64,000 nucleotides of DNA, from assembly GCF_000455365.1 (NCBI RefSeq), contig NZ_HG315684.1:764885-828884 (forward strand). Reading direction: 5' to 3'. The stretch comes from Halopiger djelfimassiliensis. GTDB lineage: Archaea > Halobacteriota > Halobacteria > Halobacteriales > Natrialbaceae. Shown here in pieces: positions 5,146-20,529 of this stretch; within the stretch, counting starts at the first letter, position 1; each line of letters begins with the position of its first letter. Both the position numbers and the translations under genes were made by a program. The notes under the pieces were generated by a model, which saw only the letters and a list, made by a program, of their open reading frames with translations, was not told the DNA's origin and searched no databases.

Positions 5146-6492
5146 TTACTCGACGGCGAGCACACCACCCTGTGCGAGCGCGGCGCGGAGGGCATGCCAG
5201 TCGTCGGGAGTGTGCCACCCCCACCCCCGTTTCCGAACGGCGTCGCTGCTCCCGAACCGCTCGCTTGCCAGTCGGAACGTCCGGACGACCCGCTCGGGGG
5301 ACTCGTTCGATCGAGCCGCGATCGCCGAGACCGCCGCATCCGCCGCGGCCGGCGCACGCGTCGCCGTCGCCCACCCAGCCGTCGTCGCGGCGAGGAACCG
5401 CTCGAGTCGCGACCGATCGCGGTCGCGCTGTACTGCTTCCCGCGTCGTGATCAGCGTCTGTCCGTAGGCCGGGTACTGATCGGCGAGGGAAACGACATCA
5501 ACCGAGTGCCCGTCCCGAGCCAACCGTCGAGCGTCCGGGACCATCCCGGTCACGACGTCGACGGTGCCCGCCCGGAGCGCGTCCCGTTCTTCGCCGTCCA
5601 GTTCGACGACCTCGACGGCGTCGCCGACGTCGGCCTGCTCGAGCAGGAGCCGACCGAGCAACGCCGTCTCCGTCGCGTGTGGCGTTCCGAGCCGCCGTCC
5701 CCGGAGTTGTTCGATGCCCTCGAAAGGTTCGCCGAACGCCTCCCGGGTCGTGTAGAGGACGACCGTCGACCGCTGCAGGAGGACGGCGACCGGGACGATC
5801 GCCAGCCCGCGAGCGCGTTCGTAAAGCACCGTCGCCGCTCCCGCGACGCCGACGTCGACGTCGCTTTCCGCGACGGCCCGTGCGGCGGCACTCGAGCCGG
5901 CGTAGGTCCGGAAGTCGATGGGAGTCTCCGCCGCGGAGCCGTCCGTTTCGGCGGCAAACAGCGGCAGGTGGAACCCGTTCGGTCGCCAGTTGAGGCCGAC
6001 GGTGATCCGATCGCCAGCCGGATCCGCTTTGCTGGTGGGGTTCGATCGGCGCTCGTCGCCTCGCGTCTCGCGGTCGCCGTCGGCCTGCCCGTCGGTCGGT
6101 ACAGGCCCTTCGTCGCCCGGTTCGTCGAAGCGGAGTCCCTGCTGGAGGAGCCGCGTTGCGTGCCAGTTGTCAACGCGCCGTATCGTTTCCTCCCGCGGAG
6201 CGACCGCGTGCCAGGCGGTCGGCGGCCGGCCCGGCGTCGCCGTCTCGACGGTCGTTCGATCGATCACCGCCGTTCGCTCGAGTCGACGCAGACACTCCCG
6301 CGTGGCGGTTCTGCTGAGTCCGGTCCCGATGTGGATCGCGGTCAGGGTCGCCGTTCGATCGAACGCGTCGGCCTCGAGCCGTCCCAGCAAGTAGGCGAGA
6401 ACCCGCGCGGCGTCCTCGCCGAGTCCCGTCGAGAGCCGGTCGACCAGCCGCTGGTCCTCGTCGGTGAGGACGGGGAACTCCCGGATGTCCAT
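5146..6492 (-). CDS. winged-helix / NMT1-THI5-like substrate-binding fusion regulator
   Basis: A 448-residue protein with no signal peptide. Residues about 8-100 form a TrmB/MarR-like winged helix (TATLTAIHIGTGLSRTATRE, CLRRLERTAVID). Residues about 165-448 resemble NMT1/THI5/SsuA-type periplasmic-binding domains, starting ITVGLNWRPNGFHLPLF, with GVAGAATVLYERARGLAIVP and LRGRRLGTP. A solute-binding fold behind a DNA-binding domain in the cytosol suggests a ligand-sensing transcription factor, perhaps for a thiamine pyrimidine precursor or a sulfonate. No transporter genes are adjacent. The start at 6492 is preferred; a GTG at 6510 is also possible. Confidence 0.78.
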   Translation of the reverse strand: MDIREFPVLTDEDQRLVDRLSTGLGEDAARVLAYLLGRLEADAFDRTATLTAIHIGTGLSRTATRECLRRLERTAVIDRTTVETATPGRPPTAWHAVAPREETIRRVDNWHATRLLQQGLRFDEPGDEGPVPTDGQADGDRETRGDERRSNPTSKADPAGDRITVGLNWRPNGFHLPLFAAETDGSAAETPIDFRTYAGSSAAARAVAESDVDVGVAGAATVLYERARGLAIVPVAVLLQRSTVVLYTTREAFGEPFEGIEQLRGRRLGTPHATETALLGRLLLEQADVGDAVEVVELDGEERDALRAGTVDVVTGMVPDARRLARDGHSVDVVSLADQYPAYGQTLITTREAVQRDRDRSRLERFLAATTAGWATATRAPAAADAAVSAIAARSNESPERVVRTFRLASERFGSSDAVRKRGWGWHTPDDWHALRAALAQGGVLAVE

Positions 6493-6553
6493 CGGTTCAT
6501 CGTCCCACACCCAGTCGCATAAAGTCGAAGCCGCCTCCGAAACTCGTCGACGG

Positions 6554-8817: not shown

Positions 8818-9747
8818 ATGACGCTCTCGAATCGACGCGTACTGGTGACCGGCGGCGCGGGGTTCGTCGGCTCGCATCTCGCCGAACGCCTGTGTGTGGA
8901 CGGGGCCGACGTGACCGTCGTCGACGATCTATCGAACGGGGACCGCGATCGCGTCCCCGACGGGGCTGCCTTCGTCGAGGCCGATCTCACGACCGCCGGT
9001 GCCCTCGAGGGCCACCTCACCGACGTCGATCTCGTCTTCCATTTGGCGGCGTCGAAACACGTCGATACGGATCGGCCCCACGGTCAGTTCGACGACAACA
9101 CGCGGATGACCCGTAACCTGCTCGAGGCGATGGCCGACGCGGACGTCTCCGAACTGGCCTACACGTCATCCTCGACGGTCTACGGGGAAGCGCCGCGGCC
9201 GACGCCGGAGGATTACGCCCCGCTCGAACCGATCAGCGCCTACGGCGCGAGCAAACTCGCCGACGAGGCGCTGCTTTCGGCGCGCGCTCACAGCCACGGG
9301 CTGACGGTCTGGAACTTCCGGTTTGCGAACGTCGTCGGCCCGCGCCTTCGCGGCGCGGTGATTCCGGACTTCATCGAGAAGCTGCAGGCCACCTCCGACA
9401 GCCTCACCATCCTCGGGGATGGCCGACAGGAAAAGTCCTACCTGCACGTCGAGGACTGTCTCGACGCCATGCTTCACGTCGTTGCCCACGCCGACGACGC
9501 GATGAACACCTACAACCTCGGGACGCGCACGACGACGTCGGTCGATCGGATCGCCACCATCGTCGCCGACGAACTGGACGCCGATCCCGACCGCGAGTAC
9601 ACCGGCGGCGAACGCGGCTGGACCGGCGACGTACCGAAGATGCGCCTTTCGATCGAGAAGCTCTCGGCGGTAGGGTGGGAGCCGTCGCTGTCCAGCGACG
9701 AGGCCGTGCGACGAGCGACCCGCGAGATCCGCGACGAACTGCGCTGA
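8818..9747 (+). CDS. NAD-dependent epimerase/dehydratase (extended SDR, sugar-nucleotide type)
   Basis: Extended short-chain dehydrogenase of 309 residues, likely acting on UDP- or dTDP-sugars in the cytosol. It has the Rossmann motif VTGGAGFVGSHLAERL at residues 9-24, DDLSNG for NAD ribose binding, the catalytic Ser-rich YTSSSTVYG and the YxxxK pair in SAYGASKLADE near residue 142. The length suits the UDP-glucose 4-epimerase family, but the exact sugar cannot be read. It is followed by lipid-linked glycan genes, which fits a role in sugar supply. It has no copy of the palindrome found before its neighbours. Confidence 0.88.
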   Translation: MTLSNRRVLVTGGAGFVGSHLAERLCVDGADVTVVDDLSNGDRDRVPDGAAFVEADLTTAGALEGHLTDVDLVFHLAASKHVDTDRPHGQFDDNTRMTRNLLEAMADADVSELAYTSSSTVYGEAPRPTPEDYAPLEPISAYGASKLADEALLSARAHSHGLTVWNFRFANVVGPRLRGAVIPDFIEKLQATSDSLTILGDGRQEKSYLHVEDCLDAMLHVVAHADDAMNTYNLGTRTTTSVDRIATIVADELDADPDREYTGGERGWTGDVPKMRLSIEKLSAVGWEPSLSSDEAVRRATREIRDELR

Positions 9748-9811
9748 TCGGAACGTCAGATGACTAACGAAACCGGCCGGGAGAACGTTCGTCGTTGCCG
9801 CCACGCCGTGT

Positions 9812-9827
9812 TTTAGGTGGGCTTAAA
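9812..9827. promoter_or_regulatory. palindromic operator, site A
   Basis: TTTAGGTGGGCTTAAA, an inverted repeat with one mismatch to the block consensus. It overlaps a TATA-like CTTAAATAT centred about 27 bases before the flippase ATG at 9852, so bound protein would block transcription initiation. The TTAGG half-site resembles DtxR/IdeR-type metal-regulator sites. Confidence 0.6.
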
Positions 9828-9851
9828 TATCTGGGGCGAGAGGCCTCGCAC

Positions 9852-11027
9852 ATGAGCGATGGGGGTGGACGATCGGGGTCGGGGGAAGCCGGTGACCGAT
9901 CGGCTCCGGCGAACGCCGACGCGGAACCAACGGGCGGATTCGCCGGGGTCCTGACCCGACGGCGACTGACCATCGGGGGGACGATACTCGTGATACTCGG
10001 CCTGATCGTCGCCGTCCGGGAGGTCGACGGTCGGGCCGTCGCCGCCGAGGTCTCGAGCGCCGATCCGCTTTTCGTGGCGGCCGCCGTCGCCGTCTACGCC
10101 ATCTCGTGGCCGCTCCGGGGCCGTCGATACCGGGACGTGCTGACCACGATGGGCCATCGCAACGGAACGGCGTTTCTCACGCTTGCGGTTTTCGTAAGCC
10201 AGACGGCGAACCTCGCGATCCCGGCGCGGATCGGCGACGCCGTCCGCGCGTACGTCGTCAATACTCGAGCGGTACCCTACACCGCGGGGTTTGCGTCGCT
10301 GGCCGTCGAGCGAGTGTTCGATCTGGCGACGATCGCGGTGCTGGCCGGGGCGGCGACGGCGTGGCTCGTCGTGGGGGGCGACGCGACTCCGCTCCGGATC
10401 GCCGCCGAAACGGGGGGTGCACGAACCGCCTTCATCGCGGCCGCGGTCGTCAGTACCGCGACCGTCGGCGTCGGGGTCGTCGTGGTAACGTCCGCGCGTA
10501 TCGATCACGGACTCGGGACGCGACTCCGGGCGTTCGCCGACGGTTCGCCCCGACTCGAGGCCCTCCTCGAATCCGTCCTCGGGTTCGTCGGGGACGTACA
10601 ACTGGTCGCTCGTCAGCCGCGGGCGCTGGCGTCGATCGGCGGAACGAGCCTGCTCGTCTGGACGCTCGACGTGCTCACCGCGGTGCTCGTACTCGCGGCG
10701 CTGGAAAGCGGACTCACGTTCGGCTCCTCCCTCGCGGTCGGGACCCTCGCAGTCAGCGTCGGCAATCTCGCGAAGGTGTTGCCGCTCTCACAGGGAGGCG
10801 TCGGCCTCTACGAGGCTGCCTTTACGGCGCTCGTCGTCGGTCTCACCCCGGTCGGCCCGAGCACCGCGCTCGCGGCCGCGATCGTCGATCACGCGCTGAA
10901 AAACGGAGTAACGCTGGTCGGCGGTGCCGGCGCGGTCACGGCGCTTGGCATCTCGCTGTCCGACGCAGCCGAGGAATCACGAACCGCACGGGATACCGGC
11001 AACTTTTTAGGTTCGCCTAAAAGATAG
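9852..11027 (+). CDS. flippase-like membrane protein (UPF0104 / lysylphosphatidylglycerol synthase TM family)
   Basis: Integral membrane protein of 391 residues with about eight or nine helices and a disordered polar N-terminus of about 35 residues. The SQGGVGLYEAAFTALVVG segment near the C-terminus and SQTANLAIPARIGDAVRAYV are hallmarks of the LPG synthase TM-region/UPF0104 family. Archaeal members are proposed to take part in flipping polyprenyl-phosphate sugars for glycosylation. The ATG at 9852 follows operator site A. The 3' end overlaps operator site B of the next gene. Its role with neighbouring glycosyltransferases is inference. Confidence 0.82.
   Translation: MSDGGGRSGSGEAGDRSAPANADAEPTGGFAGVLTRRRLTIGGTILVILGLIVAVREVDGRAVAAEVSSADPLFVAAAVAVYAISWPLRGRRYRDVLTTMGHRNGTAFLTLAVFVSQTANLAIPARIGDAVRAYVVNTRAVPYTAGFASLAVERVFDLATIAVLAGAATAWLVVGGDATPLRIAAETGGARTAFIAAAVVSTATVGVGVVVVTSARIDHGLGTRLRAFADGSPRLEALLESVLGFVGDVQLVARQPRALASIGGTSLLVWTLDVLTAVLVLAALESGLTFGSSLAVGTLAVSVGNLAKVLPLSQGGVGLYEAAFTALVVGLTPVGPSTALAAAIVDHALKNGVTLVGGAGAVTALGISLSDAAEESRTARDTGNFLGSPKR
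11006..11021. promoter_or_regulatory. palindromic operator, site B
   Basis: TTTAGGTTCGCCTAAA, a near-perfect inverted repeat that ends 13 bases before the ATG at 11035. It overlaps a TATA-like CTTTTTAG and also lies inside the last codons of the upstream flippase gene. Confidence 0.72.
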
Positions 11028-11034
11028 CGGAGCA

Positions 11035-12201
11035 ATGAGTCAGGATATCTGCGTTATCGTTCCGACGATCAGGGAGTACGAGTGCATGCGCTCGTACTTC
11101 GAGAACGCCCGCGAGCACGGGTTCGATCTCTCGCGACTCCACGTCGTCCTCGTGACCGAGGACTTCTGTGAGACCGACGCGATGGAACGGATGCTCGAGG
11201 AGGAAGGCGTCTCCGGCGAAGTCTTCGACGGGAGTCGGCGCGAGGAGTGGTACGCCGACCACGGGATCGCGGAGTACGGCCACGTCGTTCCGGCAGCCAG
11301 TCACGCCGAGACGAGTTTCGGCCTGCTGTATATGTGGGCCAACGACGAGTTCGACTACGGCTTTTTCATCGACGACGACACGCTGCCGCATTCGGATGTG
11401 GACTTCTTCGGCACGCACATGGAGAACCTCGGGTTCGCGGGCGAGATAGAATCGGTCTCTTCCGACGAGAACTGGGTCAACGTCCTCTATCAGAACGCCG
11501 ACGAACACGGCCTCTACCCGCGCGGGTATCCCTACTCCGCGATGGACGAGACGGTCGAGACCGGAACGACAGAGATCGCCGCCGGCGAGGTCGTCGCCTC
11601 GCAAGGGCTGTGGACCAACGTTCCCGATCTGGACGCCGTGCGCATCCTCATGGACGGCGATCTCGAGGGACAGGCCCAGACCCGAACGTCGCGGGACGAC
11701 TTCGGCGACGATTTCGTCGCCGCGCGGGGCAACTACCTCACCGTCTGCTCGATGAATCTCGCCTTCCGCCGGGAGGTAATTCCCGCCTTCTACCAGTTGC
11801 CGATGGACGACAACGAGTGGGAGGTCGGCCGCTTCGACGACATCTGGTCGGGCGTCTTTCTCAAGCGAGCCTGTGACGTCCTGGGCAAGCGCATCTATAA
11901 CGGCGACCCGTTGTGTGAGCACAACAAGGCCCCGCGGAGCACCTTCGACGACCTCAACAACGAGGTTCCGGGTCTCGAGCTCAACGAACACCTCTGGCGT
12001 GTCATCGACGACGTCGGCTCCGACGCCGACACCTACGCCGAGGTCTTCGAGGCGATGGGGCGGGAACTCGCCCGCGGTGACTGGGAGGCGTACAACAACG
12101 GTGCGTTCTTCAACTACGTCGGCGACCATATGCTAGATTGGCTCGAGTGTTTGTCTAAAATACAATCTCAAGACAATAGAAAAGTAACAAAACCATCGTA
12201 A
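11035..12201 (+). CDS. RGP-type glycosyltransferase / UDP-sugar mutase-like protein (alpha-1,4-glucan-protein synthase family)
   Basis: Soluble protein of 388 residues of the reversibly glycosylated polypeptide family. It starts ICVIVPTIREYECMRSYFEN and has the metal/sugar-nucleotide acidic motif GFFIDDDTLP near residue 120. Other landmarks are VVASQGLWTNVPDLDAVR, AARGNYLTVCSMNLAFRREV and EVGRFDDIWSGVFLKR. Plant relatives interconvert UDP-arabinopyranose and UDP-arabinofuranose. The archaeal substrate is unknown. The last codons and the following 60 bases are AT-rich compared with the rest of the block. It has its own operator (site B) and is followed by the iron transporter under site C. Confidence 0.82.
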   Translation: MSQDICVIVPTIREYECMRSYFENAREHGFDLSRLHVVLVTEDFCETDAMERMLEEEGVSGEVFDGSRREEWYADHGIAEYGHVVPAASHAETSFGLLYMWANDEFDYGFFIDDDTLPHSDVDFFGTHMENLGFAGEIESVSSDENWVNVLYQNADEHGLYPRGYPYSAMDETVETGTTEIAAGEVVASQGLWTNVPDLDAVRILMDGDLEGQAQTRTSRDDFGDDFVAARGNYLTVCSMNLAFRREVIPAFYQLPMDDNEWEVGRFDDIWSGVFLKRACDVLGKRIYNGDPLCEHNKAPRSTFDDLNNEVPGLELNEHLWRVIDDVGSDADTYAEVFEAMGRELARGDWEAYNNGAFFNYVGDHMLDWLECLSKIQSQDNRKVTKPS

Positions 12202-12231
12202 TCTCGCCGCTCAAATCGTCAATTATAAGTT

Positions 12232-12247
12232 TTTAGGTTTGCCTAAA
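12232..12247. promoter_or_regulatory. palindromic operator, site C
   Basis: TTTAGGTTTGCCTAAA lies exactly between a TATA box (TTATAAG, 12223-12229) and the ATG at 12254. In a leaderless haloarchaeal promoter this is the classic position for a repressor site. Confidence 0.8.
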
Positions 12248-12253
12248 CAAGAT

Positions 12254-13414
12254 ATGAACGACGACAGTGGTGTCCATACGTTTTCACGGCGGAACGCGCT
12301 GCGGCTCGGGTCCGCGTTCGGCGTTGCGTCGCTCTCGGGCTGTCTGGGGCTGTTCGGTGACGATCAAGACGCCGAGATTCCGGCGCTCTCGGAGTTTCGG
12401 GGCTCCGGGGCGCTGGCGGACGGCCGCCCCGCACCGGAGGGACCCTCGATCGAAGACCTTCCCGACCTCTCTGGCGACCTCGCGCTCTATATCGGCGGTG
12501 GCGAAGGCGGCATCTATTACGATTTCGTCGAGATGCTGCAGGAGTTCTACCCCGACTTCGAGGTCCACCCCCACGATACCGACTCGGCGTCGCTTGCCCA
12601 GACGATCGTCGAGGAGGTCGACGCCGGGGCGGCACAGGCCGACGTGTTCTGGTCGATCGACGCCAGTTCGCTCGGATATGTGGCCGAAAACGACGCCTAC
12701 GAACCGCTGTCGGACGAGACCGTCGACACGGTTGCAAACGATCAGTTCGTCGGCGACGACAACGCCTGGGCGGGCGTCGCTGGTCGTGCACGCGCCGTCC
12801 CGTACAACACTGAACAGCTGAGTGCGTCGGATATTCCCACCACCGTCCAGGAGTTCCCGGAAACGGGCGATCTCCAGGGGACGATGGGATGGGCACCGAC
12901 CTACGGCGCGTTCAAGTCGTTCGTAACGGCCATGCGCCTGCTCCGGGGCGAAGACGAGACCCGGCAGTGGCTGGTCGACATGCGGGAGGCCGGTACCGAA
13001 CAACACGCCAACGAATACGTCGTTTCCCAGTCGGTTGCCAACGGCTCTCTGGGTGCCGGATTCGCCAATCACTACTACGCGATGCGCGTCAAGAACCAAC
13101 ACCCCGACGCGCCGATCGACCTGGCGTTCACCGAAGGCGACGCCGGGGCGTTGATCAACACCGCCGGTGCGCTGAAAATCAAGGGCACCCAGCGGGGCGA
13201 ACTGGTCGACGATTTCGTTCGCCACCTGCTGTCCGCGGAAGCACAGGAGTACTTCGCGACGCGGAGCTTCGCCTACCCGATGATCGAGGGCGTCAACCCG
13301 GTCGGCGGCCTGCCGTCGATCGACGAGCTGAGTCCGCCGGACATCGACCTCGCGGAGCTAGCGAACCTCGAACCGACCCTGAAGCTGATGGACGAGGCCG
13401 GCGTGTCGGGATGA
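12254..13414 (+). CDS. iron(III) ABC transporter substrate-binding lipoprotein (FbpA-type)
   Basis: Exported solute-binding protein of 386 residues. The N-terminus has a twin-arginine signal (RRNALRLGS) followed by a lipobox ending SLSGC, so it should be folded, exported by Tat and lipid-anchored outside. The body matches FbpA/Fe(III) binding proteins (LALYIGGGEGGIYYDFVEML, AQADVFWSIDASSLGYV, NHYYAMRV). The C-terminus has TAGALKIKGTQRGE and AQEYFATRSFAYPMIEGV. The ATG at 12254 is 7 bases after operator site C, which argues for iron-dependent repression. Its stop overlaps the permease start (ATGA). Metal specificity is family inference. Confidence 0.88.
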   Translation: MNDDSGVHTFSRRNALRLGSAFGVASLSGCLGLFGDDQDAEIPALSEFRGSGALADGRPAPEGPSIEDLPDLSGDLALYIGGGEGGIYYDFVEMLQEFYPDFEVHPHDTDSASLAQTIVEEVDAGAAQADVFWSIDASSLGYVAENDAYEPLSDETVDTVANDQFVGDDNAWAGVAGRARAVPYNTEQLSASDIPTTVQEFPETGDLQGTMGWAPTYGAFKSFVTAMRLLRGEDETRQWLVDMREAGTEQHANEYVVSQSVANGSLGAGFANHYYAMRVKNQHPDAPIDLAFTEGDAGALINTAGALKIKGTQRGELVDDFVRHLLSAEAQEYFATRSFAYPMIEGVNPVGGLPSIDELSPPDIDLAELANLEPTLKLMDEAGVSG

Positions 13415-15018
13415 CGATCCGACGGCGGATCGCGGATGCGACCGACGGTGACGGCGGCGACAGTGTCGTCGACGTCGGTCTCAGCCTGCTCGCCGCAGCC
13501 ATCGCAGCCGCATTGGTACTCCCCCTCGCCTGGTTGGTCGTCGACGCCGTCGCGCTCGGAGGCCGGGCGCTCGAGTTAGCCGTCGCTCCGCGCACCCTCG
13601 ACGTGTTGGTCCGTAGCGTCGCTCTCGTCGCGGTCGTCACCGGCGCGAGCGTGGTTCTCGGCGTTCCGCTCGCGCTTTTGACGGTTCAGGGGGACGTCCC
13701 GTTTCCCCGGTTTTGGACGGTGTTGGCCGCGTTACCGCTCGCGGTCCCGAGCTATCTCGGCGCGTTCGCGTTCGTCTCGGCGTTCGGTCCACAGGGCGAA
13801 CTCGCCGATCTTCTGGAACCGCTCGGCGTCGAATCGCTCCCGTCAGTGTACGGGTTCGCCGGTGCGGCGTTCGTGTTGACGCTGTATACCTACCCGTACG
13901 TGTTCCTGACGACCCGGGCGTCGTTGCTCTCGCTCGACGGGTCGCTCGTGGAGGCCGCGCGGACGCTCAACTCCGGCCGGTGGGAGGCGTTTCGACGCGT
14001 TACGCTCCCGCAGATCCTCCCGGGGATCACCGCCGGCGCGTTGCTGGTCGCGCTGTACGCGCTCGCTGACTTCGGGACGCCGAACATCATGCGGGTCGAG
14101 GTGTTCACCCAGTACATCTACGCCCGGTACCACGCATTCGACCGCGGGTACGCCGCGTTGCTGTCGTTGCAGTTGTTGACCGTGACGGTGATCATCCTCG
14201 CGATCGAGTCCCGGATCGGCGCCGACGATTCGGGTGCCTACGAAAGCGGCGGCCATCGCGGGACTGCCGACCTCGGTCTCGGGCGCTGGCGATACCTTGC
14301 GCTGTTGCTCCCGACGGCCGTCGCCCTAGTGGCGATCGTGCTACCGATCGCCATCTTCGGAATGTGGCTCGTCTCGGGCGGTCCCGGCTATCAGGGCAGC
14401 CGACTGGCCTTCGACTGGGAGTACGGGATCAATTCGGCGTACGTCGCATTGCTTGCCGCGGCCGCTTCGATCCTCGTCGCCTTGCCGATCGCGATCGTCT
14501 CGGCGACGTCCGACTCGCGGCTGGCGGCGCTGGCCGACCGCGCGCCGTACATCGGCTACGCGACGCCGGGGATCGTGCTGGCGATCGCGTTGCTCAGTTT
14601 CAGCCTCGACGTGTTGCCGGCGATCTACAAGACGGTGCCGTTGCTCGTTTTCGCCTACGTCGTTCGGTTCATGCCACAGGCGATCGGCTCGATCCGAACG
14701 TCGACGCTACAGGTCGATCGCCGGCTCGTCGAAGCGTCACGCACGCTCGGCCGGTCGCGCCTGCGCACTTTTCGGGCGGTGACGCTGCCGCTGATCCTGC
14801 CGGGAGTGGCGGCCGGCGCTGCGCTGGTGTTTCTCACGACGATGAAGGAACTGCCCGCGACCCTGCTGTTGCGTCCGCTGGGGTTCGAAACGCTCGTGAC
14901 CTACATCTGGCGGGTCGAGGAGGCCGGCCTCTACGGGCAGGCGGCGGTCCCGGCGCTCGTCCTCGTCGTCGTCTCCGGCCTGTCGATGGCCGTGATGCTC
15001 GCACAGGAGGGACGATGA
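13411..15018 (+). CDS. iron(III) ABC transporter permease (FbpB-type, two fused membrane domains)
   Basis: Membrane permease of 535 residues with about twelve helices in two tandem domains. Each half carries an EAA loop for contact with the ATPase: EAARTLNSGRWEAFRRVTLP near residue 180 and EASRTLGRSRLRTFRAVTLP near residue 440. The duplicated layout is typical of FbpB. Translation is coupled to the binding protein by a 4-base overlap. No ATP-binding subunit gene follows; the next long gene is a membrane glycosyltransferase. The ATPase must come from elsewhere or is missing. Confidence 0.9.
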   Translation: MTIRRRIADATDGDGGDSVVDVGLSLLAAAIAAALVLPLAWLVVDAVALGGRALELAVAPRTLDVLVRSVALVAVVTGASVVLGVPLALLTVQGDVPFPRFWTVLAALPLAVPSYLGAFAFVSAFGPQGELADLLEPLGVESLPSVYGFAGAAFVLTLYTYPYVFLTTRASLLSLDGSLVEAARTLNSGRWEAFRRVTLPQILPGITAGALLVALYALADFGTPNIMRVEVFTQYIYARYHAFDRGYAALLSLQLLTVTVIILAIESRIGADDSGAYESGGHRGTADLGLGRWRYLALLLPTAVALVAIVLPIAIFGMWLVSGGPGYQGSRLAFDWEYGINSAYVALLAAAASILVALPIAIVSATSDSRLAALADRAPYIGYATPGIVLAIALLSFSLDVLPAIYKTVPLLVFAYVVRFMPQAIGSIRTSTLQVDRRLVEASRTLGRSRLRTFRAVTLPLILPGVAAGAALVFLTTMKELPATLLLRPLGFETLVTYIWRVEEAGLYGQAAVPALVLVVVSGLSMAVMLAQEGR

Positions 15019-15022
15019 GCCG

Positions 15023-15085
15023 ATGACGACCGACCCGTCCGCTCGTACCGGCGGTCGATCCCGTTCCCGAGCCCACGACCGATGA
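15023..15085 (+). CDS. possible 20-codon mini-ORF between permease and glycosyltransferase
   Basis: A short frame starting ATGACGACCGACCCG, 4 bases after the permease stop, that ends overlapping the next start codon (ATGA). It is polar and arginine-rich, with no recognisable domain. Its place is where an ABC ATPase gene would be expected, so it may be a relic or simply coupling sequence. Whether it is translated is unknown. Confidence 0.22.
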   Translation: MTTDPSARTGGRSRSRAHDR

Positions 15086-17094
15086 ACCGACGCGCGTGGC
15101 AATCGGCGGTCGCCGCCCTCGCTCTCGTCGGAGCCGTCGCCGTCTGGCTGCTCGCGACGCGGGTGTTTCCCTATCACTCGCTCAACCACGACGAGGCCGT
15201 CTACCTCCAGCAGGCGGCACTGTTGCTCGAGGGACAGCTGGTTCTCGAGCCGCCGCTCGAGGAAGTCTTCCGGCCGTGGTTTTTCGTCGAGGACGGCGGG
15301 CGGCTCTACCCGAAGTACGCGCCCGTCCCCGCGGCGATCTTCGCGCTGGGCGAACTGCTCGGGGCGGCCCGACTCGCGCTCGCGGGAACCGCCGCCGCCG
15401 TCCTCGCGCTCGTGGCCGCGGTCGTCCGCGAGACCTTCGACCGCCGGACCGGGCTCACGGCCGCCGCGATCGTGCTGTGTTCGCCGCTGTTTGTGATCGA
15501 ATCGGCCGTCTTCCTGCCGTACGCGCCGACGGCGATGTTCAATCTGGCGTTCGCGTACTGCTATTTGCGGGCCGACCGAACGAACGACCGCCGCGTTGCG
15601 GGGCTGGCCGGCGTGGCCATCGGGATCGCCTTCTTCGCACGACCCTACACCGCGGTGTTGTTCGCCGCACCGTTTATCGCCCACGCGTGCTGGACGCTCA
15701 AGCGGAACCCCCGAACGGCGCTTCCGAGACAGGCCGCGACCGCCGCCTTCGGGATGGCCGGCGTCGCGCTTGCACTGGCCTACAACGCCGCCGTGACCGG
15801 GTCGCCGCTGCTGTTTCCCTACGAGGCCTTCGCACCGCGGGACGGTCCCGGGTTCGGTCATCGCCAGATCCTCAGCCACGAGGCCGAGTACACCGTCGGG
15901 TTGGCCCTGCGGTCGAACGCCCTCGTGTTGGAACGGTTCGTCATCGACTGGATCGCGGGCGGACTTTTCGGCGGGATAGCGGCCGCCGTCGGGTTCGTCG
16001 TCGCCGTCCGCCGCGGGCTCTCGCCCCGCCAGAGCGTCCTCGCCGGACAGGTCCCGTCGATCGTCGTTGGGAACGTCTTCTTCTGGGGCAACTTCAACAT
16101 CCTCGGCGACCTCGAGCGCGCCGGCGACGGCCTGATCGCTACCCACGGCCCGTACTATCACTTCGATCTCCTGTTGCCGGTCGCGGCGTTTGCCGCCGTG
16201 GGCGTGCTGGCGATCGCCGCCGTCGCCCGCCGAACCGCCGACCGGAACCTGTCGCCGGAGCGCGCACGCGTCGTCCTCGTCGCGGCGTTGCTCGTGAGTT
16301 CGCTCGCGCTGGGCGGCGTGACGGCGACGAGCCTCGACGAAACGATCGATCGAAACGCGGCGGCGACCGACACCTACGAGCGGGTCTACGAACCGCTCGA
16401 GGACGGGACGGACGATCCGTCCGTCGTCTTCCTTCCGACGCCGTACGGCGAGTGGCTCAATCATCCGTTCCAGCCGCTGCGCAACGATCCGGACTTCGAC
16501 GGGAAGCGGGTGTACGCCCTCGACGAGCGCCCGTTCGCCGTCGTGGACGAGTACCCGGATCGATCCCTGTACCGACTCGCGTACCGCGGGACCTGGACGC
16601 CCACCGCCGGATCTCCACAGGCGTCACGCCTCCAGCGGGTCGAACACGTTTCCGGGGCCGAGCTCGCGTTCAACGCGACCATCGGCGTCCCTCCGGGGAC
16701 GGAAAGCCTGACCGCGACCGTCACGGCCAACGGGACGAGTGCCACCTACGTCGCCGAGAACGTCACCGACCGGTCGACCGTTCGGCTGACGGCCACCGAC
16801 GATCGGTTGCGGGTAACCGGGACGAACTGGAACGCCGACGAACCGCTCTCCCTCGCGGACCGAGAGGACGTTCGACTGACCGTGTTCGTCGACCGGGGTC
16901 CCGGGCGCAGTTTCAGCTACCGGTTCGAGTTGCCGGTTCGAACGACGGGCGGATCGGTTCGGGCGCTGACGCCGCGGATCGAACGGTGTAGCGCGATTCG
17001 TAACTGCGGCGGCGAAGCGGCGTACGTTCCCGACAGCGCGCCACGGAACACGTTCGTTCGAACCGAGCTCGATGCGTCGAACGCCGACGGCTAG
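15082..17094 (+). CDS. GT39/ArnT-like membrane glycosyltransferase
   Basis: Protein of 670 residues with about ten to eleven helices in the first 430 residues and an extracytoplasmic C-terminal domain of about 235 residues. The first external loop has HSLNHDEAVYLQQAALLLEG, with the acidic D-E pair typical of GT-C enzymes that use polyprenyl-phosphate-linked sugars. It would act at the outer face of the membrane, moving a sugar from a lipid carrier to a protein or glycan. It is the last gene of the apparent operon starting at 12254. Donor and acceptor are unknown. Confidence 0.75.
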   Translation: MNRRAWQSAVAALALVGAVAVWLLATRVFPYHSLNHDEAVYLQQAALLLEGQLVLEPPLEEVFRPWFFVEDGGRLYPKYAPVPAAIFALGELLGAARLALAGTAAAVLALVAAVVRETFDRRTGLTAAAIVLCSPLFVIESAVFLPYAPTAMFNLAFAYCYLRADRTNDRRVAGLAGVAIGIAFFARPYTAVLFAAPFIAHACWTLKRNPRTALPRQAATAAFGMAGVALALAYNAAVTGSPLLFPYEAFAPRDGPGFGHRQILSHEAEYTVGLALRSNALVLERFVIDWIAGGLFGGIAAAVGFVVAVRRGLSPRQSVLAGQVPSIVVGNVFFWGNFNILGDLERAGDGLIATHGPYYHFDLLLPVAAFAAVGVLAIAAVARRTADRNLSPERARVVLVAALLVSSLALGGVTATSLDETIDRNAAATDTYERVYEPLEDGTDDPSVVFLPTPYGEWLNHPFQPLRNDPDFDGKRVYALDERPFAVVDEYPDRSLYRLAYRGTWTPTAGSPQASRLQRVEHVSGAELAFNATIGVPPGTESLTATVTANGTSATYVAENVTDRSTVRLTATDDRLRVTGTNWNADEPLSLADREDVRLTVFVDRGPGRSFSYRFELPVRTTGGSVRALTPRIERCSAIRNCGGEAAYVPDSAPRNTFVRTELDASNADG

Positions 17095-17187
17095 GCTGTG
17101 ACGGTCCGACCACGAACCGCAGGGGACGGCGCACGGCGATCGGAGCCGCCGGCAGCGTCGCAGGTGTCGAGGCCACACCCGTGCCGT

Positions 17188-17925
17188 TCAGCGGAACCGT
17201 TCCTCGAGACTGACTTTGACGATCGATTTCGCGATGGCGGTCCCGCCGCGGATCGGATCGAGTTTCGTCTCCCCGGCGCGCTCGCGGTACTCGATCGGGT
17301 GCTCGCGCACGTCGTAGCCCCGCATCAGCGGTCGGATCAGCAGTTCGGCCGAGAGGCCGGTGTTCTCGGTCCACTCGATGGACTCGACGACCTCGCGGCG
17401 GTACGCGCGCATGCCCGTGGTTGTGTCGTGGACGCGAGTCCCCATCAGGACGCTGGCGATAGCCGCGAAGGCATGGTTGCCAAAGCGGTTGAACGCCGGC
17501 ATCGCGTCGGCCCCGTGGTAGAGGCGGTCGCCGCTGACGACGTCGTACCCGTCGTTGATCAACTCGAGGAACTCGGGCAACTGCTCCATGGGATAGGTGT
17601 CGTCGCAGTCGGTGGTGACGACGATCGGTCGATCCGGCTCGAGGATCGCCGCGCGGACGGCGACGCCGTACCCCTGAGGGCGCTGTTGGATCACCGTCGC
17701 GCCGTGCTCGCGGGCGATTTCCGGGGTCCGATCCGAGGAGCCGTCGACGCAGACGACTTCGGCCCGGCCGTCGGTGACGGCCTCGATGTCCTCGAGGACG
17801 GTGCCGATCGCTTCCTCCTCGTTGTAGGTCCCCATGACGACGCTGACGTCGTCGAAGGTGTACTCGGTGTCGGTCGGTTTCTCGCCACTCCCAGTCGCGT
17901 CCGCACTAGTGCCTCCGTCGCTCAT
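17188..17925 (-). CDS. glycosyltransferase family 2, polyprenyl-phosphate sugar synthase-like (DPM1-type)
   Basis: Cytosolic GT-A enzyme of 245 residues. Motifs include VSVVMGTYNEEEAIGTVL, AEVVCVDGSSDRTPEIA, QQRPQGYGVAVRAAI and the metal-binding TTDCDDTYP. The C-terminal part has HDTTTGMRAYRREVVESIEW and EYRERAGETKLDPIRGG, as in dolichol-phosphate mannosyltransferases and AglJ-like proteins. No membrane helix is seen, so it belongs to the soluble DPM1 class. It probably loads a sugar on a polyprenyl phosphate. The promoter has operator site D. It is convergent with the GT39-type gene. Confidence 0.88.
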   Translation of the reverse strand: MSDGGTSADATGSGEKPTDTEYTFDDVSVVMGTYNEEEAIGTVLEDIEAVTDGRAEVVCVDGSSDRTPEIAREHGATVIQQRPQGYGVAVRAAILEPDRPIVVTTDCDDTYPMEQLPEFLELINDGYDVVSGDRLYHGADAMPAFNRFGNHAFAAIASVLMGTRVHDTTTGMRAYRREVVESIEWTENTGLSAELLIRPLMRGYDVREHPIEYRERAGETKLDPIRGGTAIAKSIVKVSLEERFR

Positions 17926-17957
17926 CGACGGCCCTTTCGGCCGTCCGGACTTATGTG

Positions 17958-17973
17958 TTTAGGTTTGCCTAAA
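17958..17973. promoter_or_regulatory. palindromic operator, site D
   Basis: TTTAGGTTTGCCTAAA, identical to site C. On the minus strand it lies immediately upstream of an ACATAA TATA-like element, about 28 bases before the GT2 start at 17925. It would cover the TFB recognition element rather than the transcription start. Confidence 0.72.
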
Positions 17974-18034
17974 CCTCACGTCTCCGGTCGTGAAACCGCA
18001 GTGACAGGGCGTTTCGCGGATCGGTATCTCGACG

Positions 18035-18274
18035 TCAGTTCGACCGTTCGTCCGGGTGCCGGGGAGCCGTCGCGTCGTACCGCCTGTAGAGGACCACGAA
18101 CGCCGCAAACACGACGACGGTTCCGACAGCCGTGCCGATCCAGCCCGGGTACGGAACGCCGAGTGCCACGAAGAAGTTACCCACTAGATACGCGGCGACC
18201 GACATCGTCACGATAACCGCCAGCCCCAGCGCGAACCGCGTCACCGGGTTCGCCTCGATCGGATTGCGAGTCAT
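18035..18274 (-). CDS. small two-helix membrane protein
   Basis: Protein of 79 residues starting MTRNPIEANPVTRFALG. It has two hydrophobic helices (FALGLAVIVTMSVAAYLVG and WIGTAVGTVVVFAAFVVLY) and a charged tail. It resembles conserved haloarchaeal small membrane proteins without known function. It lies between the GT2 gene and the GMC oxidoreductase and has no palindrome before it, so it may not belong to the regulon. Confidence 0.65.
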   Translation of the reverse strand: MTRNPIEANPVTRFALGLAVIVTMSVAAYLVGNFFVALGVPYPGWIGTAVGTVVVFAAFVVLYRRYDATAPRHPDERSN

Positions 18275-18343
18275 ACCGGAACGTCGTGTCAATCGGCCAT
18301 AAGCCTTGCCGCGTCACTCCCCCTCAAGTACGGGAAGGGCGGG

Positions 18344-19987
18344 TTACGAGAGCGTCTCGCGGACGTGATCCGCGGCTTTCAGCGCGAGCGCCGCGATCGT
18401 CAGCGTCGGGTTCATCGCGCCGCCGGTCGGGAAGACGCTGCTCGAGGCGATCCAGCAGTTCTCGAGGTCGTGGGTGCACAGATCGGGACCGACGACGCTC
18501 TGGGTCGGATCCGCCCCCATCCGAGTCGTTCCCATGTGATGGTAGGCCGGCCCGGTGTCGTCGGGACCGACCTGCCACGTGATCTCCGCGCCCAGTTCCC
18601 CGAGGATCTCCCGCTGGATCTCGGTGACGCGTTCGATCGTTCGCAGCGCTCGGTCGTCGACCGTCCAGTGAACGTCCGGAACGGGGTTGCCCCGATCGTC
18701 CGTTCGGTCGGGATCGAGCGCGACGTAACTGTCCTCGCGGGGGAGTTGTTCGACCAGCGCCCCCATGCCGATGTGGTTGCCGTACTCAGACCGGAGGCGC
18801 TCGAGTAACTCGTCGCCCCAGTCGTCGCCGGTCAGCGCCATCTCGACCGGCGAGGGACCGTCGTAGTTGAAGAACTCGAGTTTGAACGGGGCGTACTCCT
18901 CGTCCGCTTCGTCGTAGAACTGGTGGGACTCGCTGGTGAGAAACCCGACGTGATTCTGTCGGGTCGGTTCGTCGATGACGCCGCCGGTCCCCGCAAAGAG
19001 GTGATCCATGAAGAACCGACCGACGAGACCGCTCGAGTTGGCCAGCCCGTCGGGATAGTCGCTCGAGTCCGAGAGCAACAACAGCCGGGGCGTCTCGACG
19101 CCGCCGCAGGCGACGACGAAGGCGTCGGCCGACTGTCGGCGGTTCCGATCGTCGGGGGTGGCGTAGACGGCCGCTTCGATCGCGTCGGCGTCGTGCTCGA
19201 GGTGCTGGACCGGGGCGCGGTCGATCACCGTCGCCCCCTTCCGTTCGGCCCGTTCGACGTGGACCGTCGCGTCGTACTTCGCGCCGGACGGACAGACCGG
19301 CTGGCAGGTGCCGTAGCCGACGCACGCGCTCCGCCCGTCGTAGGTCTCGGAGTTTCGAGCGTTCGGAACCGAGTGCATCGCGATCTCGAGTTCCTCGCAG
19401 GCCTCGGCGAACAGCGAGTCGCTGTAGGACGGCGGGAACGCGGGCAGCGGATGCGGTTCCTCGCGGGGTGGCGCGAACGGGTTGTCGTCGGCCCCGGCGA
19501 CGCCGAGTTCGCGTTCCGCGGCGGCGTAGTACGGTCGGAGCTCCGCGTAGTCGATCGGCCAGTCGACCCCGACGCCGCGGGCGCTGGCCGAGTTGAAGTC
19601 GTCCTCGTGGAGACGCATCACCATCCCCTGCCAGTGGAGCGTCGAGCCGCCGACGCCCTTGGCGCGGGCGTGGTTCAGCGGGTAGAACCGGTCGTCGTTC
19701 GAGTTCGTGTAGGCGTCGCGTTCGCCGTCGCCGTCCCAGACGTCCGGGCGGCTGTAGGCTGGCCTGATCGCGCGTTCCTGCCGCGAGCGCCGATCGTCGG
19801 GGTCGAACCGCGGTCCGGCCTCGAGGATCACGACCTCGTACCCGGCCTCGGCCAGCCTGTCGGCGACGATGCCGCCCGCTGGTCCCGCGCCGATCACGCA
19901 GACGTCGGCGTCGTCGACGGGAGTGCGATCGACGGCTGCGTCGGTCGCCGTTCCGGCGGTTTCGGCCGGCGGACGACTCCCGCTCAC
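18344..19987 (-). CDS. GMC family FAD oxidoreductase (gluconate/glucose dehydrogenase-like catalytic subunit)
   Basis: Flavoprotein of 547 residues that oxidises an alcohol, probably a sugar or sugar acid. The FAD site CVIGAGPAGGIVADRLAEAG is near residue 31 and the GMC C-terminal domain has GTTRMGADP and FPTGGAMNPTLTIAALALKA. A cysteine cluster, ACVGYGTCQPVCPSG (CX5CX3C), lies near residue 215. Related FAD-glucose dehydrogenases bind a small iron-sulfur cluster in such a region; this is inference here. It has no signal peptide of its own. Its start overlaps the stop of the Tat-signal partner by 4 bases, so it is probably exported in complex with that protein. Confidence 0.88.
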   Translation of the reverse strand: MSGSRPPAETAGTATDAAVDRTPVDDADVCVIGAGPAGGIVADRLAEAGYEVVILEAGPRFDPDDRRSRQERAIRPAYSRPDVWDGDGERDAYTNSNDDRFYPLNHARAKGVGGSTLHWQGMVMRLHEDDFNSASARGVGVDWPIDYAELRPYYAAAERELGVAGADDNPFAPPREEPHPLPAFPPSYSDSLFAEACEELEIAMHSVPNARNSETYDGRSACVGYGTCQPVCPSGAKYDATVHVERAERKGATVIDRAPVQHLEHDADAIEAAVYATPDDRNRRQSADAFVVACGGVETPRLLLLSDSSDYPDGLANSSGLVGRFFMDHLFAGTGGVIDEPTRQNHVGFLTSESHQFYDEADEEYAPFKLEFFNYDGPSPVEMALTGDDWGDELLERLRSEYGNHIGMGALVEQLPREDSYVALDPDRTDDRGNPVPDVHWTVDDRALRTIERVTEIQREILGELGAEITWQVGPDDTGPAYHHMGTTRMGADPTQSVVGPDLCTHDLENCWIASSSVFPTGGAMNPTLTIAALALKAADHVRETLS

Positions 19988-20505
19988 GCGTCCGGCCCCC
20001 GCTGATAGGTGGTGATCCCGCCTGCGTACCCCTGCGGGTTCTCGAGACCGACCAGTTCGCCGCCCGTCGGCGAGGCATACAGCGCCAACAGGAGTTCGTT
20101 GACGACGTAGTACCGCACCCGCTCGGCGGTCGTCCCCTCGGGGTCCTCGTCGGCGTCATCCGCGCCCACGTTCCGGAGGACCTGCTCACGGTCCGCGGCC
20201 GGCAGGGCCGCGAACCGGTCGTCGTACCACACCGCCGCGTTGTCGTCGAGGGCCGCGACCGCCGCGGCGACGCCCACGGCGTGGTCCCGGTCGGTGAGTC
20301 GACCCTCGAGGAACGCCTCGACGAACGTCGCCGTGCCGGAAACCTCGCTCGGGTAGACGACCTCGGCGGCCGCGACCAGCGTTTCGCGGAGCCGTTCGAT
20401 GTCGATCGGTTCGGACCCGGGCGGGGCCACACAGCCCGACAGCGTCCCCCCACCGACCCCGAGCGCGGCCAGCGCGGCGACCGCGTCCCGTCTGGTCAGT
20501 TCCAT
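19984..20505 (-). CDS. gluconate 2-dehydrogenase subunit 3 family protein (Tat lipoprotein)
   Basis: Small partner of a GMC dehydrogenase, 173 residues. The N-terminus has a twin-arginine signal (TRRDAVAALAALGVGG) followed by a lipobox ending GTLSGC. The rest is helical, with EVVYPSEVSG, as in gluconate 2-dehydrogenase gamma subunits. In this enzyme class the small subunit carries the export signal for the flavoprotein. No cytochrome c subunit gene is nearby, so the electron acceptor is unknown. Operator site E lies 8 bases before its ATG. Confidence 0.86.
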   Translation of the reverse strand: MELTRRDAVAALAALGVGGGTLSGCVAPPGSEPIDIERLRETLVAAAEVVYPSEVSGTATFVEAFLEGRLTDRDHAVGVAAAVAALDDNAAVWYDDRFAALPAADREQVLRNVGADDADEDPEGTTAERVRYYVVNELLLALYASPTGGELVGLENPQGYAGGITTYQRGPDA

Positions 20506-20513
20506 GGCCCCGG

Positions 20514-20529
20514 ATTAGGCGAACCTAAA
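20514..20529. promoter_or_regulatory. palindromic operator, site E
   Basis: ATTAGGCGAACCTAAA (reads TTTAGGTTCGCCTAAT on the minus strand). It sits between a TATATG box (20531-20537) and the ATG at 20505, the same layout as site C. Confidence 0.78.

Follow-up and report, generated by a model that had tools for sequence, protein, structure and literature searches.

We examined a window of 64,000 nucleotides from Halopiger djelfimassiliensis (NZ_HG315684.1, positions 764,885 to 828,884 of the forward strand), in which a block of carbohydrate and iron-transport genes is interspersed with copies of a palindrome, TTTAGGNNNNCCTAAA. Profile searches, comparisons with solved structures and a motif scan identified the following features.

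8818–9747 (+), NAD-dependent, GalE-like sugar-nucleotide epimerase (PF01370, E 7.8e-54), found beside the cluster in 27 of 68 full-length loci
9812–9827 (no strand), palindrome with one mismatch, 24 nt before the UPF0104 gene
9852–11027 (+), UPF0104/LPG_synthase_TM flippase-like membrane protein (PF03706, E 4.3e-41; TIGR00374 over cut-off), in 37 of 68 loci
11006–11021 (no strand), exact palindrome 13 nt before the RGP gene, inside the end of the UPF0104 gene
11035–12201 (+), GT75/RGP-like enzyme (RGP) of a haloarchaeal subfamily (PF03214, E 1.2e-17; MtdL structure 7yua, E 6.2e-24)
12232–12247 (no strand), exact palindrome 6 nt before the FbpA gene
12254–13414 (+), FbpA-type ferric-binding lipoprotein, a substrate-binding protein (SBP) with an RR motif, a lipobox and an HYY dityrosine (7w3w, E 7e-45)
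13411–15018 (+), FbpB-type fused ABC permease (PF00528, two stretches)
15082–17094 (+), predicted GT-C (GT39-like, PMT_2) lipid-linked-sugar transferase (GT39) with an extracellular DUF7846 domain (PF13231; PF25230, E 4.7e-43)
17188–17925 (−), soluble DPM1-like GT2, a dolichyl-phosphate hexose transferase (DPM; NF041391, E 5.2e-125, over cut-off; archaeal DPMS 5mlz, E 6e-13)
17958–17973 (no strand), exact palindrome 32 nt before the DPM gene
18344–19987 (−), catalytic subunit (GMC) of an FAD sugar dehydrogenase with a C-x5-C-x3-C 3Fe-4S motif (glucose dehydrogenase 6a2u, E 7.6e-86)
19984–20505 (−), gluconate-2-dehydrogenase subunit 3-type small subunit carrying the Tat signal (PF13618, E 1.6e-8)
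20514–20529 (no strand), palindrome with one mismatch, 8 nt before the small-subunit gene

A preliminary description, made from the sequence alone, had listed the epimerase, an RGP-type UDP-sugar mutase-like enzyme, a soluble GT2, a flippase-like protein and a GT39-type enzyme in a consistent order of action, most of them sharing the palindrome or an operon with an Fe(III) importer. This observation holds, as all of the named genes are present, although the order of action is not the gene order and the DPM gene is convergent on the other strand. Two additions are needed. The GMC oxidoreductase and its small subunit, which had not been mentioned, belong to the set and have their own palindrome, and this sugar dehydrogenase is one of the most tightly co-inherited parts. 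The FbpC ATPase is missing here but lies elsewhere in the genome behind the same palindrome.

The palindrome occurs 5 times in the window against 0.17 expected (0 of 100 shuffles reached 5), always within 9812–20529, and precedes five units. In the whole genome it occurs 24 times, against 2 for the reversed control. The same signal precedes five Peripla_BP_2 siderophore-binding proteins, a diaminobutyrate aminotransferase of the siderophore-pathway type and the separate FbpC-type ATPase. The genome also contains two strong PF01325 (DtxR-family) genes, but any binding of their products to the palindrome is inferred. The palindrome lies at siderophore and ferric uptake genes, as for the FetR/SirR/Idr/TroR iron regulon of haloarchaea (a ‘ferR regulon signal’, credited to Leyn and Rodionov 2015, is cited in PMC11349517), and the set described here includes a lipid-linked glycosylation and sugar oxidation module.

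We next asked whether the genes co-occur beyond this strain, a test that had been set beforehand, and found that they decisively do. In 80 haloarchaeal loci from many genera, RGP and the FbpA-type SBP are present in all and GT39 in 79. A palindromic box lies 12–38 nt before RGP in 78 of 80 loci, before the SBP gene in 72 of 79, before the DPM gene in 48 of 66 and before the small-subunit gene in 46 of 58; 276 of 294 boxes fall inside the cluster span, and a scrambled control gave 0. By contrast, no box precedes the epimerase in any of 29 loci, which rejects it as a member of the regulon. A 79-aa two-helix ORF between the GMC and DPM genes gave no hit in the 80 loci and was rejected as a part, and a search for further conserved unknown genes in the cluster returned only the FbpC ATPase, in 22 loci. 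Of ten plasmid hits, seven are Halobaculum and one is Salarchaeum, so the cluster can be plasmid-borne.

The phylogenetic profile is all-or-none. DPM (NF041391 over cut-off) and DUF7846 are present in 35 of 35 RGP-positive and 0 of 35 RGP-negative genomes (Fisher p 2e-20, ignoring ancestry), and 13 further genomes agree. The GMC subunit is present in 30 of 30 against 0 of 30 at 64% identity or more, and the small subunit in 29 of 30 against 0 of 30 over the family cut-off, with contrasts inside four genera of the sample (g7, g9, g16 and g36). In eight genomes in which the GMC and small-subunit genes lie apart from the cluster, the box is retained. Among the 124 other genomes of the phylum sample, no DUF7846 was found outside haloarchaea. 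Three RGP-negative genomes have a close FbpA without the module, two of them with the permease alongside, so FbpABC does not need it, and one genome (G104) has a 55% identical dehydrogenase without the glycosylation genes and without a box.

The GT75-like enzyme keeps 10 of 12 functional residues of the characterized mutase MtdL, including the DDD motif, Arg159 (the set retained includes the glycosylated Arg), Asp195, Arg257, Asp260 and His287, but the active-site residues Asp87 and Gln229 are replaced by His90 and Met240, which are invariant in 19 haloarchaeal homologues, and we classify the protein as GT75-like rather than as a mutase. Mutation of D87 abolishes MtdL mutase activity (PMC9937993). 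FbpA resembles solved ferric-binding proteins and has a tyrosine pair for Fe(III), with HYY in 80 of 80 loci. The predicted GT39 structure (pLDDT 86) matches ArnT, AglB and EmbB, evidence that concerns the fold only, and N35, D37, E38 and K78 are nearly invariant; the DUF7846 domain is predicted to be all-beta and had no PDB match at E ≤ 0.001. The GMC subunit has the catalytic His/Asn and the 3Fe-4S cysteine motif (46 of 47), and the small subunit has the RR motif in 59 of 59; no multihaem cytochrome c subunit was seen among the conserved genes of the loci.

These parts resemble several known systems. Three-component extracytoplasmic glycosylation, including the bacterial pentofuranose systems with GT136 (PMC11127046), likewise has a GT2 that charges polyprenyl phosphate, a membrane flippase candidate and a GT-C enzyme with an extra extracellular domain, but the present set is archaeal, has a GT75-like partner instead of PRPP-based or DprE enzymes, and is coupled to predicted iron-box control, FbpABC and a surface sugar dehydrogenase. 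In the Haloferax AglD–AglR–AglS dolichyl-phosphate-mannose branch of N-glycosylation, a dolichyl-phosphate monosaccharide is also made inside and transferred outside, and UPF0104 homologues of about 610–690 aa, as in AglD-type GT2–UPF0104 fusions, exist in other families; here the GT2 and UPF0104 are separate, the transferase is different and iron control is predicted. The importer shares the FbpA sequence, dityrosine and fused permease with FbpABC/HitABC, but its ATPase is encoded elsewhere in this genome and it always lies beside glycosylation genes in RGP-positive genomes. The dehydrogenase shares its GMC subunit with a 3Fe-4S motif and its Tat-signal small subunit with bacterial FAD-glucose and fructose dehydrogenases, from which it differs in the lack of a multihaem cytochrome c subunit at the locus and in its iron box. 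We found no earlier description of this combination in the open literature searched, which did not include the 2015 regulon study.

On this basis, we propose with moderate confidence that the locus is an iron-repressed haloarchaeal module that makes and oxidizes a sugar on the outside of the cell, together with a ferric importer. In this view, a DtxR-family repressor would sit on the palindromes and block the promoters when iron is sufficient, and the promoters would open together when iron is short. RGP would prepare or hold the nucleotide sugar (possibly as a furanose), DPM would put the sugar on dolichyl phosphate, a flippase (here UPF0104) would turn it outward, GT39 would transfer it to an extracellular acceptor and the Tat-exported dehydrogenase would oxidize it. 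FbpA would bind Fe(III) and import it with FbpB and the ATPase encoded elsewhere, and most likely the oxidized surface sugar presents Fe(III) to FbpA or keeps it soluble. Our computations establish the gene identities, the shared control signal and the co-inheritance, whereas each reaction is inferred from family membership, repressor binding and low-iron expression are inferred from sequence alone, and the sugar, its acceptor and the benefit for iron uptake rest on inference only. Two points sit uneasily with the model: UPF0104 is absent from many loci, and an Fe–S enzyme is an odd thing to induce when iron is scarce. In Haloferax volcanii, HVO_1859 (UPF0104, +11.6) and HVO_0655 (GalE family, +12.7) rise under iron starvation (PMC11349517), but they could not be shown to be the cluster’s orthologues, and the only close UPF0104 homologue in each of two genomes of one related genus is a fused protein of about 610 aa; we therefore do not use these data as proof.

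The earlier interpretation, an iron-stress-induced extracellular glycan or glycosylation, is partly supported: an iron-box-controlled lipid-linked-sugar pathway joined to an Fe(III) importer is supported, whereas a metal-binding polysaccharide as the product, mutase activity of the RGP homologue and a flippase role for UPF0104 are not established, and the epimerase lies outside the regulon. A bolder possibility, which we regard as tentative, is a glycan-based iron acquisition system in which haloarchaea answer iron starvation by attaching a dolichyl-phosphate-delivered (perhaps furanose) sugar to a surface acceptor and oxidizing it in place to an Fe(III)-binding keto- or acid sugar that hands iron to FbpA; DPM, flippase and GT-C would then also be the first archaeal O-glycosylation-type pathway.

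Other readings are less likely. GT39 might glycosylate the FbpA lipoprotein itself, or other iron-uptake lipoproteins, in a dedicated O-glycosylation of the importer, with the dehydrogenase trimming or marking that sugar. FbpA and GT39 are always neighbours, covary (rho 0.84, a result that also speaks for the main reading) and exist as two matched alleles in Natrialbaceae (about 46% between classes), while RGP, DPM and GMC stay at 85–87%; PMT-like and ArnT-like folds would fit, and archaeal O-glycosylation enzymes are unknown (PMC8241124). However, the covariation may mean only that the SBP–permease–GT39 operon is exchanged as one piece, no conserved Ser/Thr-rich stretch follows the FbpA lipobox, FbpA functions elsewhere without the module and a dedicated sugar dehydrogenase is not needed for such a role. 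Somewhat less likely still is that iron starvation remodels the surface glycan (S-layer, glycolipid or exopolysaccharide) for reasons other than iron capture, with the dehydrogenase feeding electrons to a respiratory chain short of iron. Respiratory complexes do fall, and many unrelated proteins rise, under iron starvation in Hfx. volcanii (PMC11349517), and the dehydrogenase resembles respiratory FAD-glucose/fructose dehydrogenases, but a role apart from iron uptake leaves the linkage of FbpA to RGP in all 80 loci unexplained.

It is also conceivable, but improbable, that the dehydrogenase works as a DprE1-like oxidase on the dolichyl-phosphate sugar, so that the sugar is epimerized on its carrier before transfer, as in mycobacterial arabinan synthesis. 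The co-inheritance of the dehydrogenase with DPM and GT-C, the match of GT39 to EmbB/EmbC and the precedent of lipid-linked pentofuranose (PMC11127046) favour this idea, but the cluster has no DprE2-like reductase and GMC is a different enzyme family from DprE1. A chance neighbourhood of unrelated genes, for which nothing speaks beyond the generic individual annotations, is refuted by the perfect co-inheritance, the boxes retained on unlinked parts and the different surroundings of the cluster in different families.

About four fifths of the sampled haloarchaeal genomes (232 of 292) carry the RGP gene, and wherever it was checked the rest of the module came or went with it. Haloferax volcanii, a genetic model, gives hits to RGP, DPM, DUF7846 and the small-subunit family, so the module can be tested at once. 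It names concrete enzymes for the unsolved problem of archaeal O-glycosylation, a pathway that ‘remains to be elucidated’ (PMC8241124). Lack of iron probably reshapes the haloarchaeal cell surface, and the module would be a link between iron supply and extracytoplasmic glycosylation in archaea.

We first examined the gene content of the window. The preliminary description, which had pointed to genes for sugar-nucleotide, lipid-linked sugar and iron-uptake proteins sharing, apart from the epimerase, a palindrome or an operon, holds, and all of the genes it named are present and intact. Still within its coordinates, but not discussed in it, are a GMC oxidoreductase and its neighbour. From left to right, the block comprises:

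8818-9747, GalE-like epimerase
9852-11027, UPF0104/LPG_synthase_TM protein
11035-12201, GT75/RGP homologue (RGP)
12254-13414, FbpA-type lipoprotein
13411-15018, fused FbpB-type permease
15082-17094, GT39/PMT_2 protein with a C-terminal DUF7846 domain
17188-17925, on the other strand, GT2 that exceeds the NCBIfam cut-off for 'dolichyl-phosphate hexose transferase' (DPM)
18344-19987, GMC oxidoreductase
19984-20505, gluconate-2-dehydrogenase subunit 3-type protein with a Tat signal (the small subunit)

A 79-aa two-helix ORF between GMC and DPM (18038-18274, minus strand) had no relative in 80 loci. Outside the block, the gene at 5146-6510 (minus strand) has a putative N-terminal winged-helix-like region joined to an NMT1/THI5-like domain, and looks like a ligand-sensing regulator rather than a transporter subunit.

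The palindrome TTTAGGNNNNCCTAAA occurs at 9812 (one mismatch), 11006, 12232, 17958 and 20514 (one mismatch), whereas 0.17 occurrences are expected. It lies 24, 13, 6, 32 and 8 nt before the starts of UPF0104, RGP, FbpA, DPM and the small subunit, respectively, which fits a repressor covering the promoter or start, although binding is inferred from sequence alone. The genome contains 24 such sites, compared with 2 for the reversed pattern, and encodes two strong DtxR-family genes. Genes behind other sites include five Peripla_BP_2 siderophore-binding proteins, a diaminobutyrate-2-oxoglutarate transaminase of the kind that opens siderophore clusters, and an FbpC-type ATPase 37 nt from its site, which supplies the subunit that the importer in the window lacks. 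Some other sites precede genes with no obvious iron role. At two further loci of the same genome (L012:2080-3880 and L009:2020-3531), palindromes also sit near a gene pair whose second member weakly resembles an SMC-related protein and before a DUF5059-plastocyanin protein; the SMC-like protein Sph3 of Hfx. volcanii rises 17.7-fold at low iron (PMC11349517), which may be the same theme.

We next asked whether the block is conserved. RGP is found in 232 of 292 sampled genomes of the class, in 57 of 77 genera. In 18 loci from several families and in 80 named loci, RGP always lies with FbpA, and in 79 of the 80 it also lies with the GT39 gene; the permease, DPM, small subunit, GMC, UPF0104 and epimerase are present in 63, 60, 54, 44, 37 and 27 of 68 full-length loci, respectively, and the outer neighbours differ between families. 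The box is found before RGP in 78/80 loci, before FbpA in 72/79, before DPM in 48/66 and before the small subunit in 46/58. GT39 and GMC, which are downstream in their operons, have none (0/81 and 0/48), and neither does the epimerase (0/29). Of 294 boxes in 1.6 Mb, only 18 lie outside the cluster span, and a scrambled pattern gives 0. In the Halobaculum plasmid examined, the whole module is plasmid-borne, beside a Gfo6 sugar dehydrogenase and other sugar genes, and several other Halobaculum plasmids and one Salarchaeum plasmid carry RGP (NZ_CP090372.1 and other Halobaculum plasmids; Salarchaeum plasmid NZ_CP042240.1). A second cluster-type RGP copy, 63% identical to that of the window and without a box, occurs in one genome (G217 C2:34068, locus L157) besides the boxed one on contig C1. 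Another genome (G010) has a second GT75 gene of the plant/bacterial RGP type (L015:1492-2472, minus strand; 452 bits to PF03214, compared with about 60-70 for cluster-type RGP) beside a glycosyltransferase, probably an independently acquired gene.

Inheritance of the module is all-or-none. In 35 RGP+ and 35 RGP- genomes from 44 genera, DPM (over its cut-off) and DUF7846 both occur in 35/35 RGP+ and 0/35 RGP- genomes, and 13 further genomes agree for DUF7846. Fisher's P is about 2e-20, although this test ignores shared ancestry; four genera (g7, g9, g16 and g36) contain both states. The dehydrogenase at 64% identity or more occurs in 30/30 RGP+ and 0/30 RGP- genomes, and the small subunit in 29/30 and 0/30 over the family cut-off. 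Family-level PF13618 hits of a longer, high-scoring type occur in both groups and are a different protein. One RGP- genome (G104, locus L161), the only one seen with a related dehydrogenase pair, holds a 55% relative of the dehydrogenase and, for the small subunit, a sub-threshold match. In eight genomes the dehydrogenase pair lies far from RGP, up to megabases away, and still has the box in front, whereas in G104 it has none. This argues for joint function rather than linkage alone.

Pairwise identities of FbpA and GT39 correlate at 0.84, compared with 0.32 for FbpA and RGP. In Natrialbaceae there are two FbpA-GT39 types (46% identical between types) on an otherwise uniform background of RGP, DPM and GMC (85-87% between types). 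Either the operon is exchanged as a block or the two proteins are matched to each other. FbpA of RGP- genomes is mostly a 33-38% paralogue, but three such genomes have a 47-51% FbpA without the module.

To assess what the enzymes may do, we compared them with characterized proteins. The RGP homologue aligns with MtdL, a GT75 GDP-sugar mutase. Ten of twelve functional positions are identical, including DDD, the glycosylated Arg and the metal-binding His, but Asp87 is His90 and Gln229 is Met240, both invariant in 19 haloarchaeal sequences. Given that mutation of Asp87 abolishes MtdL mutase activity (PMC9937993), we describe the protein as GT75-like, with an unproven reaction. The GT2 has no transmembrane segment by hydropathy in nearly all copies and matches archaeal dolichol-phosphate mannose synthase. 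The GT39 model (pLDDT 86) matches AglB, ArnT, EmbB/EmbC and PMT enzymes, all of which take sugars from polyprenyl carriers, whereas DUF7846 is modelled as an all-beta domain without a confident match. FbpA matches solved ferric-binding proteins and keeps the HYY tyrosines in 80/80 loci. GMC matches bacterial FAD-glucose and fructose dehydrogenases over its whole length, with the 3Fe-4S Cys motif, and the small subunit would export it by the Tat route, as in those enzymes.

Each protein family is known, and each gene has an automatic name in public records. We found no paper joining them, although some of the genes may already be listed as iron-regulated in the two most relevant regulon studies, which this search did not cover. 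The iron-starvation proteome of Hfx. volcanii reports an 11.6-fold rise of a UPF0104 protein and a 12.7-fold rise of a GalE-type protein, but these could not be matched to the cluster.

The gene identities, the shared palindrome and the co-inheritance are shown by computation, whereas repressor binding, the individual reactions and any benefit for iron supply are inferred. The preliminary interpretation, an iron-stress-induced extracellular glycan or glycosylation such as a metal-binding polysaccharide, is partly supported. That the product helps to capture Fe(III) is an inference from the constant linkage to FbpA and the chemistry of oxidized sugars, and glycosylation of FbpA itself, general surface remodelling and DprE1-like action on the lipid-linked sugar remain possible. 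The simplest reading is a three-component extracytoplasmic glycosylation system of the type described for bacterial pentofuranoses (PMC11127046), differing from it in its archaeal form, in surface oxidation of the sugar and in being under iron control.
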